Positions 924-6,198 of a stretch of DNA of 10,818 bases are shown piece by piece. The notes beneath the pieces were generated by a model. It had not been told where the DNA came from. It did no database searches and saw nothing but the letters and a program-made list of their open reading frames with translations. The position numbers and the translations under genes were made by a program. Location of the stretch: the NCBI GenBank assembly GCA_016285335.1, contig JAEEQO010000089.1:1-10818 (forward strand), written 5' to 3'. Each line of letters begins with the position of its first letter. Positions within the stretch are counted from its first letter, which is position 1. Origin of the DNA: Victivallales bacterium. GTDB lineage: Bacteria > Verrucomicrobiota > Lentisphaeria > Victivallales > UBA1829.

Positions 924-1090
924 GAGGACAAGTCCTCAACTGAAATAGTGCCCGGCTCTGCTCGGGCACGTGTTCTCGCGTAGCAGAACACTTCTACAGC
1001 ACGGCTTGCCGTGGCCGCACTTCGTGGCGGCACGAGGCGAACGCCTCGACTGTCATAGTGCCCGGCTTCGCTCGGGCACGTGCTCTCGCG
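924..1090. repeat. Hairpin-repeat array, locus 1 (three full two-hairpin units, one lone hairpin, one half hairpin)
   Basis: This array fills most of the gap between the GH51 stop and the first Sel1 gene. In order: a + unit with 14-bp hairpin 924-937 (GAGGAC-AA-GTCCTC), linker 938-947 and 22-bp hairpin 948-969 (GTGCCCG/CGGGCAC); an inverted unit with 22-bp hairpin 970-991 (GTGTTCT/AGAACAC), linker 992-999 and 14-bp hairpin 1000-1013 (CACGGC-TT-GCCGTG); a variant 22-bp-type hairpin 1011-1033 sharing GTG with the previous one; another + unit with 1034-1047 (GAGGCG-AA-CGCCTC), linker 1048-1057 and 1058-1079. The left half of a further inverted hairpin (1080-1090) then stops abruptly before the Sel1 ribosome-binding site. 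The repeats are read directly from the sequence. Their function is unknown; REP/BIME-like elements are the nearest known analogy. Confidence 0.9.
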
Positions 1091-1115
1091 AAACAACAAC
1101 AGAAGGACATGCACC

Positions 1116-2477
1116 ATGCCGATCTTACGCGTCATCCGTTCCGCATCCGCCATTCTTTTCGCGCTGGTCCTGACCGCCGCATTCACGGGGTGCGGGACCA
1201 GGGCGGATTCCGAATATGAAAAAGGCGTCGAGGCATATCTGAGGCGAGACTATGCGAACGCCGTGCTTCATTACAGGGAAGCCGCGAAGCGGGAACATGC
1301 GGAAGCTCAATTCCAGCTCGGATGCTGTTATGAGAACGGCGAAGGAGTGCCGGCCGATTTCGCGGAAGCCGTCAAATGGTGGCGCAAGGCCGCCGAAAAG
1401 TCACATCAGGCGGCACGGGAGAGGCTGGAGGAACTGGACGAACTCGAAAGATGCCGTCAGGCGGCGGAACGGGGAGACGCGGAGGCGCAATACCATCTCG
1501 GTCGTCAATGCGTCGAGGGCGCGTTGAACGCGGACCCGCGGGAAGCGGCGAAATGGTTCAGGCTGGCAGCCGAACAGGGACATGCGGGGGCGCAATTCGA
1601 ACTCGCCAGGAACCTCTGCTATGACAACGACGATGATGACGACGATGCGGAAGCCTTCGAATGGTGGCGCAAGGCCGCCGAACAGGGGCATGTCGAGGCG
1701 ATCTTCGAACTCGCCGATTGTTATGAAGTCGGATTCGTTGTGGACACGGACCCGGCGCAGGCGCTCGAATGGTACCGCCTGGCCCTCGAAAAGGGACATG
1801 CGAAGGCGCAGGAGAGGATCGACGACATCCTGGAAATGGAAGGAAACCGCAAGGCCGCGGAACAGGGCAGCGCGGACGCACAGCTTATCATGGGAAATTA
1901 CTACGAAAACAAGTACGCGGAGGAAGCGGTCAAATGGTTCAGGCTGGCAGCCGATCAGGGGCTTGCGAGAGCGCAGTTCATGCTCGGCTGCCACTACGAT
2001 TCCGGCGACGGCGTGGAAGAGGACCCCGCGGAAGCGGTCAAATGGCTCACTCTGGCCGCCGAACAGGGCCTGGAGGAAGCGCAATTCCAACTCTATCTGC
2101 ATTATGAGAAAGGAAAAGGCGTGCCCCGGGACGACGCAGAAGCCGCGAAATGGCTGAACCGTTCCCGGAAATGGGCGGTCGCCGACACGCTGTACAGGGC
2201 CGGCTGTCAGTATGCGGCGGGTGCCGGAGTCAAAAAGGATATGGCAAAGGCGATCGAATACTGGAATATGGCGGTCGCACAGGATGTGCCCGCGAAATAT
2301 GCGCCTGCCAAGGCCGCGGCGCAGTACCGGCTCGCACAATGCCTTTACGACGGCGACGGCATCCCGGAAAACAAGCAGGAAGCAATCGAGCTCTGGCGCA
2401 CCGCCGCAGAAAACGGCAATGCCGACGCTAAAAACAAACTTCAGGAGCTCGGGGTGGCGGAGCCTCCACTGAAGTAG
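1116..2477 (+). CDS. Sel1-repeat (TPR-like) lipoprotein
   Basis: A 453-residue protein. I chose ATG 1116 because AGAAGGA (1101-1107) lies 8 nt upstream and it gives a clean lipoprotein signal: R5/R8, a hydrophobic stretch at 9-23, then FTGC with Cys26 as the likely lipidated residue. An in-frame GTG at 1080 lies inside the hairpin array and is unlikely. Residues 33 to about 445 are eight or nine Sel1 repeats (AEAQFxLGxxYxxGxGVxxDxxEAxKWxRxAAEQG). Sel1 repeats are alpha-helical solenoids that usually scaffold protein-protein contacts; the partner here is unknown. One repeat has lost its GxGV loop and carries a D172-D177 run encoded by a GAY tract (1623-1646). A 131-residue super-repeat is visible: the helix starting at residue 102 recurs at 233. 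Short exact DNA repeats (1375-1397 with 1660-1682; 1551-1573 with 1932-1954) suggest recent internal duplication. AGG arginine codons are common. No clear promoter was seen; the hairpin array lies directly upstream. Confidence 0.85.
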   Translation: MPILRVIRSASAILFALVLTAAFTGCGTRADSEYEKGVEAYLRRDYANAVLHYREAAKREHAEAQFQLGCCYENGEGVPADFAEAVKWWRKAAEKSHQAARERLEELDELERCRQAAERGDAEAQYHLGRQCVEGALNADPREAAKWFRLAAEQGHAGAQFELARNLCYDNDDDDDDAEAFEWWRKAAEQGHVEAIFELADCYEVGFVVDTDPAQALEWYRLALEKGHAKAQERIDDILEMEGNRKAAEQGSADAQLIMGNYYENKYAEEAVKWFRLAADQGLARAQFMLGCHYDSGDGVEEDPAEAVKWLTLAAEQGLEEAQFQLYLHYEKGKGVPRDDAEAAKWLNRSRKWAVADTLYRAGCQYAAGAGVKKDMAKAIEYWNMAVAQDVPAKYAPAKAAAQYRLAQCLYDGDGIPENKQEAIELWRTAAENGNADAKNKLQELGVAEPPLK

Positions 2478-2480
2478 CTT

Positions 2481-4480: not shown

Positions 4481-4511
4481 TGGATTTTTTACCGTTTTCG
4501 TAGCATATTAT
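4481..4511 (+). promoter_or_regulatory. Possible guaA promoter
   Basis: TGGATT (4481-4486), 17 bp, then CATATT (4504-4509), or TATTAT shifted two bases to 4506-4511. The surroundings are T-rich and the box (GCATATTAT) resembles GCTATATTA at 2682 and 9801. It would give a leader of about 30-35 nt before ATG 4549. The -35 match is weak. The rest of the 4316-4548 gap holds only short imperfect palindromes. Confidence 0.45.
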
Positions 4512-4548
4512 ATGATACCCTTTTTCAGTTTCATCGGAAAGATTGATC

Positions 4549-6093
4549 ATGAACCATCCTGAAACCATTCTCGTGCTGGATTTCGGATCCCAGTACAGCC
4601 AGCTCATCGCCCGCCGCGTCCGCGAACTCCACGTCTACAGCAAGATCGTTTCGTGGAAAACATCCGCGGAAGAGATCCGCGAGGCGGCTCCCGCGGGCAT
4701 CATCCTGAGCGGCGGCCCGGCCAGCGTTTACCAGGCGAACGCCCCGAAATGCGACCCCGCCATTTTCGATCTCGGCATCCCGGTGCTCGGCATCTGCTAC
4801 GGCCTCCAGCTCATGGTCGAAACGCTCGGCGGCGAAGTGGCGCACGGCGACGCCCGCGAATACGGCAAGGCGATCGTCTCCACGACCGCGGCGTCCCCGC
4901 TCTTCGAGGACCTGCCCGCCCAGACGCAGATGTGGATGTCCCACGGCGACAAGGTGACCCGTCTGCCCGAGGGATTCGCCACGTGCGCCAAGACCGACAA
5001 CACCGAGTTCGCCGCCATCCAGAACATCGCCCGCGGCCTCTACGGCATCCAGTTCCACCCCGAGGTGGTCCACTCCCCGATGGGCCCGCTCGTCATCGAG
5101 AATTTCTGCCTCGGCATCTGCGGCTGCTCCGCGAACTGGACCATGTCCGACTTCATCGAACGCTCCGTGGCGGAGATCCGCGAGACGGTCGGCTCCGCGA
5201 ACGTGATCCTCGGCCTCTCCGGCGGCGTCGATTCCTCCGTGGCCGCCGCGCTGATCCACAAGGCCATCGGCGACCAGCTCACGTGCGTGTTCGTGAACAA
5301 CGGCCTGCTCCGCAAAGACGAACCGGAACGCGTCCGCGAACTCTTCGGCGGCACGTTCAAGATGTCGCTGGTGTACGTCGACGCCACCGAACGCTTCCTT
5401 TCCAAGCTCGCCGGCGTCAACGAACCCGAACGCAAACGCAAGATCATCGGCGGCGAGTTCATCCAGGTCTTCAACGACGCCTGCGCGAACATCCCGGACG
5501 TGACGTTCCTCGCCCAGGGCACCACCTATCCGGACGTCATCGAAAGCATTTCCATCGACGGCAACCCGAGCGCGGTCATCAAGAGCCACCACAACGTCGG
5601 CGGCCTGCCGAAACACATGCAGTTCAAGCTGCTCGAACCGCTCTCCCGCCTGTTCAAGGACGAGGTGCGCGAGGTGGGACGTCAGCTCGGCCTGCCGGAA
5701 GAAATGGTCATGCGCCAGCCGTTCCCCGGCCCCGGACTCGCCGTCCGCTGCGTCGGCGAAGTCACGCCCGGCAAGCTCGCCGTGCTCCGCGGCGCCGACC
5801 GCATCATCGTCGACGAAATGAAGAAGGCCAACCTCTACTACAAGATCTGGCAGACGTTCGCCGTGTTCCTGCCCGTGCGGTCCGTCGGCGTCATGGGCGA
5901 CGAACGCACCTACGAGGACGCCATCGCCATCCGCGCGGTCGAAAGCCGCGACGGTATGACCGCCGACTGGGTGCGTCTGCCCTATCCGCTCCTCGCACGC
6001 ATCTCGAACCGCATCATCAACGAGGTCGACGGCGTGAACCGGGTCGTCTACGACATCACGTCCAAGCCCCCGGGAACCATCGAATGGGAATGA
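4549..6093 (+). CDS. guaA: GMP synthase (glutamine-hydrolysing)
   Basis: A 514-residue cytoplasmic enzyme of purine synthesis, converting XMP to GMP with ATP and glutamine. ATG 4549 is chosen over an in-frame TTG at 4543: GGAAAG (4536-4541) lies 7 nt upstream and the protein then starts MNHPETILVLDFGSQY, the standard N-terminus. Residues 1 to about 190 are the class I glutamine amidotransferase domain, with the Cys83 nucleophile in GICYGLQ and His170/Glu172 in QFHPEV. Residues about 200-385 are the ATP-pyrophosphatase domain with the PP-loop SGGVDSS at 224-230. The C-terminal XMP-binding/dimerisation domain ends in KPPGTIEWE, the usual terminus. Length is close to E. coli GuaA (525). All motifs are intact. 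Codon use is strongly C-ending and I found no AGG/AGA arginine codon. The gene stands alone without guaB beside it. Its TGA overlaps the first base pairs of a hairpin array. Confidence 0.98.
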   Translation: MNHPETILVLDFGSQYSQLIARRVRELHVYSKIVSWKTSAEEIREAAPAGIILSGGPASVYQANAPKCDPAIFDLGIPVLGICYGLQLMVETLGGEVAHGDAREYGKAIVSTTAASPLFEDLPAQTQMWMSHGDKVTRLPEGFATCAKTDNTEFAAIQNIARGLYGIQFHPEVVHSPMGPLVIENFCLGICGCSANWTMSDFIERSVAEIRETVGSANVILGLSGGVDSSVAAALIHKAIGDQLTCVFVNNGLLRKDEPERVRELFGGTFKMSLVYVDATERFLSKLAGVNEPERKRKIIGGEFIQVFNDACANIPDVTFLAQGTTYPDVIESISIDGNPSAVIKSHHNVGGLPKHMQFKLLEPLSRLFKDEVREVGRQLGLPEEMVMRQPFPGPGLAVRCVGEVTPGKLAVLRGADRIIVDEMKKANLYYKIWQTFAVFLPVRSVGVMGDERTYEDAIAIRAVESRDGMTADWVRLPYPLLARISNRIINEVDGVNRVVYDITSKPPGTIEWE

Positions 6094-6198
6094 GGCGAAC
6101 GCCTCAACTGTCATAGTGCCCGGCTCCGCTCGGGCACGGAGGACAAGTCCTCCACTGTTATAGTGCCGTGCTACGCGACGGCACGAGGCGAACGCCTC
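6092..6198. repeat. Hairpin-repeat array, locus 3 (overlaps the guaA stop codon)
   Basis: In order: + unit with 14-bp hairpin 6092-6105 (GAGGCG-AA-CGCCTC, starting inside the TGA), linker 6106-6115, 22-bp hairpin 6116-6137 (GTGCCCG/CGGGCAC); + unit with hairpin 6138-6153 (GGAGGAC-AA-GTCCTCC), linker 6154-6162, 22-bp hairpin 6163-6184 (GTGCCGT/ACGGCAC); then a 14-bp hairpin 6185-6198 and the first bases of a linker (GACTG), which then diverges. Because the strong terminator lies further downstream, the whole array should be transcribed as the guaA 3' UTR. Confidence 0.92.

Follow-up and report, generated by a model that had tools for sequence, protein, structure and literature searches.

Repetitive extragenic palindromes (REPs) of the GTAG kind are palindromes of 20–40 bp with GTAG or GYAG at their 5' side and with complementary stem residues that are interchangeable. 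They have short loops with GC edges and, in some families, bulges, they are found mostly 3' of genes, between tandem or convergent ones, and they sometimes provide the stop codon TAG (PMC3733652; here and below, statements attributed to a cited paper refer to excerpts of it). In E. coli, the REP substrate of the enzyme TnpA-REP carries the GTAG tag and is an imperfect palindrome whose bulge is required for recognition, and cleavage takes place at a CT near the REP (PMC8266576). When a REP of E. coli lies less than 16 nt from a stop codon, ribosomes stall and translation is lowered (PMC12306157, citing Liang 2015). The stretch of DNA analysed here, which we call the window, comprises 10,818 nucleotides of a Victivallales bacterium (GCA_016285335.1, contig JAEEQO010000089.1, positions 1 to 10,818) and carries three arrays of a repeat unit formed by two hairpins. 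We think that these units are probably REP-like non-coding repeats of one rumen Victivallales clade, which spread as folded single-stranded DNA and whose stop-abutting hairpins act in mRNA. Comparison of genome sequences establishes their dispersal, their covariation, their position and their head-to-tail arrays.

The unit is formed by hairpin 1, a linker of ~6–10 nt ending in a GTAG-like tag, and hairpin 2. Hairpin 1 exists as type A (e.g. GGAGGAC-AA-GTCCTCC) or type B (e.g. CACNGC-AA-GCNGTG), and hairpin 2, of 22–24 nt, has a single bulged base and is capped by GC-TNC-GC. TAAGGAGG was also considered as a Shine-Dalgarno sequence, an idea that was given up since type B units do not contain it. 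Two sets of sequences were studied. The first one, with 163 copies of hairpin 2, is made up of the window plus 80 stretches that were taken from four genomes for the units in them. The second one comprises 797 kb in four long contigs of three genomes that were not picked for units; all four surfaced in a search for guaA, and two of them carry guaA with units already seen. The tag bases lie outside the search pattern, and their consensus is GTAG, with GYAG in 97 of the 163 hairpins. The last G of the tag is the first base of the stem and hence paired. Neighbouring copies of hairpin 2 are mostly on the same strand, i.e., head-to-tail (36 of 47 pairs, and 5 of 7 in the second set).

A preliminary description of the window, made from its sequence alone, proposed that the structure is kept while the sequence drifts. 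This proposal has been borne out by comparing copies: stems vary in sequence with the fold preserved, to a degree that neither shuffling nor sliding reproduces, both across many copies and at orthologous sites. The outcome that would have refuted that description, copies elsewhere with no excess covariation, was looked for in part, by shuffling 73 distinct type A units whose selection ignored the four free stem pairs, and the proposal was not refuted. Paired stem cells amount to 97.6% of 657, against 84.2% (sd 0.9) in shuffled alignments and at most 56.8% with slid partners. Cells changed on both sides are 77 versus 20.4 shuffled, and the covariation score is 0.335 versus 0.102. Row L081, which has no unit and is probably a match by chance, was excluded at our discretion (74 of 75 listed rows in alignment A1, 110 of 111 in A2); restoring it to A1 gives 97.3% paired. 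For hairpin 1, allowing loops of 2–4, the mean is 6.14 pairs versus 4.60 shuffled (highest 4.83) in 81 distinct copies. These covariation statistics cover type A hairpins. When all seven stem pairs were left free, counting perfect stems only, GTG/CAC was present in 112 of 114 hairpins of the first set and 11 of 12 of the second one, and the rare GCG/CGC, GTC/GAC and CTG/CAG stems are likewise paired. Copies unpaired at stem positions 5 and 6 number 5 and 7 of 73, and some of them look like joined halves of two stem types.

The dispersal of the unit was studied with a composite pattern, in which all stem bases were free, across a collection of genomes of 84,980 species. Twelve stretches were matched in seven genomes, all of them metagenome-assembled genomes (MAGs), whose titles give Lentisphaeria, Lentisphaerae, Victivallales or uncultured bacterium; three titles name yak, sheep or goat rumen, and the 'RUG' isolates are rumen genomes as well. 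Searching for hairpin 2 alone, with four stem pairs free and GTG, CAC and the core fixed, gave 71–105 copies in each of the seven genomes and none with the reversed pattern. In a sample of 100 genomes of the order, including the seven, 12 carriers have 37–105 exact matches (control 0), and the other 88 have 0–2, about the same as the reversed-pattern control there. A pattern scan of viral contigs gave no match. The guaA of 11 of the 12 carriers is 96–97% identical to that of the window, which therefore belongs to the same close group; in the remaining carrier, G047, only a 55% paralogue was found. A covariance model built from 110 copies finds 169 places at E ≤0.1 in 1.18 Mb, where its own sequences match by construction. 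At the level of sequence searches, the two-hairpin units are thus a dispersed family of Lentisphaeria/Victivallales MAGs.

The position of the units relative to genes is equally characteristic. Genes were called by a home-made codon/hexamer method, whose starts and small genes are unreliable and whose stops are firmer. In the first set, 154 of the 163 copies of hairpin 2 are outside called genes and 9 inside, and gaps with a copy are 4 of the 103 between divergent genes, 52 of the 487 between tandem genes and 37 of the 90 between convergent genes. The corresponding figures in the second set are 0 of 65, 13 of 327 and 4 of 57; of its 33 hits, eight are within called genes and seven of these are unlike the family and probably due to chance, so about 26 are real. 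In both sets, therefore, units sit 3' of genes and are rare between divergent ones, which is the location expected for REPs. In addition, the unit tends to abut stop codons in sense orientation, as far as the gene calls indicate. This was measured as the fraction of first sense copies of hairpin 2 starting 19–27 nt past the stop, the distance set by an abutting hairpin 1. The first set gave 37 of 74 arrays, versus 4.5 expected for even placement in the gap and 15 as the highest of 20,000 simulations. The second set gave 10 of 13 versus 0.6 expected (highest 5); two of these ten arrays are guaA units, and 8 of 11 are locked when guaA is left out. The commonest distance from the hairpin unit to the stop codon is 0 nt. 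Antisense arrays show no such peak, with hairpin 2 ending 0–2 nt from the stop in 0 of 52 and 0 of 9 cases. In some genes the unit is placed immediately upstream of the former end, and the stop then comes from the repeat (TAG of GTAG, TGA of ACTGA). A fixed target motif TAA/TGA seems less likely: varied bases precede the arrays that are not behind a sense stop (compared by eye, in a list that includes units inside gene ends). Both the lock to the stop codon and the GTAG-like tag are additions to the preliminary description.

Comparison of the same locus across genomes gives further insight. On the 3' side of guaA, 11 of 12 sequences (the window and 11 genomes) carry a unit and G049 has none. 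These units have five different stem sequences, all of them paired, and in 7 of 11 the guaA stop codon is within hairpin 1, as TGA opposite TCA in five and as TAA opposite TTA in two. At pyrH, compared by eye, the hairpin 1 that begins at the base after the stop is of type B in G006 and of type A in G003 and G049. G007 has a truncated type B hairpin at that base and a whole one 11 nt further, G001 has type A a few bases past the stop, G088 has a CTG/CAG variant overlapping the stop, and six of the 12 genomes have no unit. In the G088 variant (L192), the stop TAA lies in the loop of a hairpin GCAGGC-TAAC-GCCTGC, and head-to-tail CTG/CAG unit variants follow. At dapA, six genomes have intact or decayed units and six have none. 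At yggS, hairpin 1 is translated as a C-terminal tail in 8 of 11 genomes, hairpin 2 is present alone in G004, and two genomes have neither. The YggS tail (L205–L215) reads GRQSLH in 6 of 11 genomes and has two further variants, the stop being mostly derived from the repeat. Among 106 reciprocal-best gene pairs, units are near the stop in both members in 9, in one in 12 and in neither in 85, a count in which the choice of stretches inflates 'both' and some variant units were missed by the search.

Several of these observations could also be explained if the units are kept as cis-acting RNA elements behind the stop, for 3'-end protection, ribosome stalling or control of read-through, with no present mobility. 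The sense orientation, the zero gap to the stop, the rarity in divergent gaps and the conservation at guaA, where stems have been replaced and yet remain paired and most units pair the stop codon itself, are what such a role would predict. However, half of the genomes lack the unit at pyrH and half at dapA, many units are antisense or distant from a stop, and the different hairpin types following pyrH in G006 and in G003/G049 look like separate arrivals. We therefore consider this explanation unlikely, although it is the strongest of the competitors.

The cap and the bulge of hairpin 2 were also studied. For the cap, all eight core bases were left free and only GTG...CAC and four pairs were required. 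Out of 129 sites, 123 have GCTNCGCN on one strand, with N being A in 38, T in 33, C in 30 and G in 22. Most of the DNA in this test had been fetched by its match to GCTNCGC, so the count is best read split: 112 of 115 in the fetched DNA, and 11 of 14 in contigs whose choice did not depend on units, where the three remaining caps are GCTTCGAT, GCTGCGAT and GCTGCGTT. On the opposite strand, the cap GCTNCGC reads GCGNAGC. A GNA loop together with at least two G-C pairs makes a DNA hairpin extraordinarily stable and resistant to nucleases (PMC4686876). ViennaRNA with DNA parameters assigns equal energy to both strands, with parameters that may not include the bonus of the GNA loop. The cap motif thus supports, without proving, a constraint on single-stranded DNA. 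Regarding the bulge, stem position 7 (column 34) has two possible partners: column 43, with which it can pair in 70 of 73 copies, and the 'bulged' base itself (column 42), with which pairing is possible in 71 of 73, namely as G-U (44), U-G (19), U-A (5), G-C (2) or A-U (1). Double changes of this second pair are 24 versus 8.6 shuffled, and its further pair types are no more than in the shuffles. In RNA folding, the shifted register is 0.4–0.7 kcal/mol above the best structure for the three T7 variants tried (CCGT, CTCT and TTCT), it is not among the three best structures for G7 variants, and the common CCTT variant has its bulge one position further out. Judging from these models, a sliding bulge is plausible for part of the family, and part of the coupling could come from shared descent of two main lineages.

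The preliminary description offered selection on the fold or copying by a structure-recognising enzyme as the cause of the pattern. The fold is indeed kept, but RAYT, the usual enzyme of GTAG REPs, exceeds the NF047646 cut-off in none of the 12 carriers, which are MAGs and may be incomplete. It does so in 9 of the 100 order members. The RAYTs inspected in repeat-poor relatives adjoin other, unrelated palindromes, which are not an ancestor of the two-hairpin units. In one such relative, the non-carrier G041, a RAYT gene (L217 57–1058) has many GTAG palindromes in both orientations on either side, a classic layout resembling bacterial interspersed mosaic elements (BIMEs). Another two-hairpin repeat, with inverted GGAACGCC-like ends (L218 and L220–L239), is present in 4–32 copies each in G025, G031, G035 and G041, four of the eight genomes searched, and two of its copies in L218 (1178–1230 and 1867–1919) flank a RAYT-like gene. 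Regarding Y1 transposases, four of the 12 carriers have a PF01797 match above the cut-off, three matches being partial and one full-length (G074); the latter is of IS200 type, with 151.5 bits against NF033573 and 32 against the RAYT model (cut-off 80). No Y1 match was obtained in the other 8 carriers at E 0.001. As they are absent, partial or IS200-type in the carriers, RAYT and Y1 enzymes were rejected as the present mobiliser.

These four Y1 matches, including the full-length one of IS200 type, speak for units that would be minimal IS200/IS605-type ends, i.e., a two-hairpin miniature inverted-repeat transposable element moved in trans by IS200 TnpA. Against it stand the eight carriers with no match and the surroundings of the genes themselves: in the flanking DNA retrieved for the four Y1 genes (L043, L044, L125 and L126), a fuzzy search detected no unit, and the nearest units listed beside the G074 gene are ~2.5 kb away. 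We consider this origin very unlikely.

In the window, the gene order is an alpha-L-arabinofuranosidase-like gene, of which only the end is present, two Sel1-repeat genes, guaA, an ankyrin-repeat gene and one gene without Pfam match. The arrays are 3' of the first gene (923–1093), of the first Sel1 gene (2494–2558) and of guaA (6091–6199). Both strands were scanned with a plan of seven paired bases, two paired bases, a loop of three and one bulged base. The preliminary description counted eight hairpins of this plan. Seven are perfect, at 948(+), 970(-), 1058(+), 2494(-), 2537(+), 6116(+) and 6163(+), versus 0.14 expected by chance per window (highest 2 in 100 first-order Markov sequences). 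The eighth, at 1011, is genuine but imperfect (GTGGCCGC...GCGGCAC), and one extra G makes it 23 nt long. The loop TNC given for them does not hold for the 948 copy, which has TCT. Among the 14-bp partner hairpins, five have stems of 7 bp rather than 6 because the flanking bases also pair (923/938, 1033/1048, 6091/6106, 6138/6153 and 6184/6199).

The first array begins with a type A hairpin 1, TGAGGAC-AA-GTCCTCA (923–938, +), 1 nt after the stop TGA (919–921) of the upstream gene, which is followed by hairpin 2 of the first unit, GTGCCCG..CGGGCAC (948–969, +). An inverted unit comes next, with hairpin 2 GTGTTCT..AGAACAC (970–991, -) and a type B hairpin 1 that reads CACGGC-AA-GCCGTG on the minus strand (1000–1013, -). 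Then follow the imperfect hairpin 2 (1011–1033, +), in which direct reading places the extra G in the 5' arm and shows a clamp AC/GT, a type A hairpin 1, CGAGGCG-AA-CGCCTCG (1033–1048, +), and hairpin 2 GTGCCCG..CGGGCAC (1058–1079, +). The array ends in what may be a truncated remnant of an inverted hairpin 2, GTGCTCTCGCGAAA (1080–1093, -), again read directly. The second array has an inverted unit, with hairpin 2 GTGCTCT..AGAGCAC (2494–2515, -) located 16 nt past the stop of the first Sel1-repeat gene and a type B hairpin 1 (2524–2537, -), and then hairpin 2 GTGCCGT..ACGGCAC (2537–2558, +), followed by GTTTTT. In the third one, the stop TGA (6091–6093) of guaA, encoding GMP synthase (4549–6093, +), is the 5' end of a type A hairpin 1, TGAGGCG-AA-CGCCTCA (6091–6106, +), with hairpin 2 GTGCCCG..CGGGCAC (6116–6137, +). 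The second unit has GGAGGAC-AA-GTCCTCC of type A (6138–6153, +) and GTGCCGT..ACGGCAC (6163–6184, +), and direct reading shows a lone hairpin 1, CGAGGCG-AA-CGCCTCG, without hairpin 2 (6184–6199, +) at the end. Past this array, at 6204–6250, lies another inverted repeat, distinct from the units, which has a T run and reads TGTTGCAAAAC...GTTTTGTAGCAG followed by TTTTTTTT; a similar terminator-like repeat is also 3' of guaA in G007 (L129). The GC-rich stretch CGCGCCTCGCGGCAAACAAAAGATG... at 6255–6350, which has look-alikes 3' of guaA in G007 and 3' of yggS in G001, is possibly another dispersed repeat.

A few hairpins followed by a T run, such as that at window 2537–2564, might suggest that the units are intrinsic transcription terminators. 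This reading was rejected as highly improbable, since TTTT occurs within 10 nt downstream in only 4 of the 163 hairpins, and guaA has the separate terminator-like hairpin mentioned above (~6204–6250) behind its array. The composite two-hairpin pattern with up to 3 mismatches has four matches in the window versus none in 200 shuffles. Two controls cut the other way: single 14-nt palindromes are not rare in the window (10 versus 3.7 expected), and the hairpin-2 pattern with 3 mismatches is at chance level (18 versus 14.2 expected). The rarity lies in the exact hairpin and in the two-hairpin unit. Chance GC-rich palindromes, which these last two controls would allow, are refuted by the zero counts of the reversed pattern in the 12 carriers and by the Markov and shuffle controls.

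We return to the reading that we favour, that of REP-like repeats spread as folded DNA with a role in mRNA when they abut a stop. Now or formerly, the units would spread in the form of DNA: single strands would fold and be processed by an enzyme of the HUH type, RAYT/IS200-like or other, which may have been lost, left unassembled or gone unrecognised. Exchange among copies might have reshaped them, as suggested by the mosaic stems and the type swaps. By analogy with E. coli REPs, a stop-abutting unit would form an mRNA hairpin at the terminating ribosome, which must open it, and this hairpin might lower expression of the upstream gene or protect its 3' end. Several points weigh against this reading. 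Two of the five covariation measures give no excess over shuffling (pairs with a double change, 4 versus 3.9; further pair types, 10 versus 9.4), and the copies are paralogues related by descent, so the shuffle counts overstate independent changes and are not probabilities. The exact GTAG is found in only 65 of 163 copies, with its last G shared with the stem. No RAYT over the cut-off was detected in the carriers, with the reservation that MAGs may lack genes. Half of the first sense arrays of the first set, as well as the antisense arrays, are away from stop codons, and therefore neither targeting nor function explains every copy. A bolder version would be a transposase-orphan repeat whose landing site, where it is also retained, is the nucleotide following any stop codon, by way of GCGNAGC-capped folded single-stranded DNA with a sliding bulge, and that would represent a new class of stop-codon-directed mini-elements. 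We put it forward tentatively and think that it is rather doubtful.

The family bears on two old questions, namely how REP palindromes spread and whether those adjacent to stop codons serve the cell. The clade offers a natural test: among its many species, a given housekeeping gene is followed by a unit in some and by none in others, the first hairpin comes in two interchangeable types, and no RAYT was found that could account for the units. The outcome would reveal either dissemination without a RAYT or strong selection that favours a stop-abutting hairpin, and a GCGNAGC cap would tie the family to folded single-stranded DNA.

It remains to place the family among the known systems. Rfam has no match in the window, and the best E values in two arrays are 0.85 and 0.9, below the gathering scores. 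Lentisphaerae are absent from the main text of the GTAG REP survey (PMC3733652), and no title on such repeats was found among the papers listed from the open-licence literature; the clade name was sought in two REP surveys. As far as these sources and Rfam go, the two-hairpin family is apparently unnamed. The earlier statement that no named family has this plan was nevertheless too strong as worded, because GTAG-tagged REPs, with their interchangeable stem residues, are already known as a kind (PMC3733652).

The cap complement is the same motif, with N free, as that of the d(GCGNAGC) DNA mini-hairpins, which are known from in vitro work (PMC4686876). Compared with E. coli stop-proximal REPs, the likeness is a sense-orientation hairpin directly behind the stop, whereas the commonest position here is 0 nt and the functional parallel is by analogy only (PMC12306157). 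The TnpA-REP substrate shares, in part, the GTAG tag, and it shares the bulged palindrome; its cleavage site CT has a counterpart in the ACTG that most type A linkers carry here. It differs in sequence, in that the units have a bulge of a single base which is coupled to stem position 7, and in that no such protein is over cut-off in the carriers (PMC8266576). The closest relatives are the GTAG REPs and BIMEs, with which the units share palindrome size, in part the tag, stem interchange, GC-edged loops, bulge, 3' location and supply of TAG stops. In contrast to them, the REP-like hairpin is here accompanied by another hairpin that is not related to it, hairpin 1 frequently begins precisely at the stop codon, no RAYT over the cut-off was found in the carriers, and the last G of the tag is paired, while the published tag is unpaired (PMC3733652). 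Instead of the usual head-head/tail-tail dimers (BIME, REPIN), the arrays are mostly head-to-tail. Short palindromes dispersed in many copies outside genes, and their location, agree with GTAG REPs; the tag agrees in part, and the association with RAYT and the dimer plan do not. The family is therefore REP-like in kind, standing outside the named REP families.

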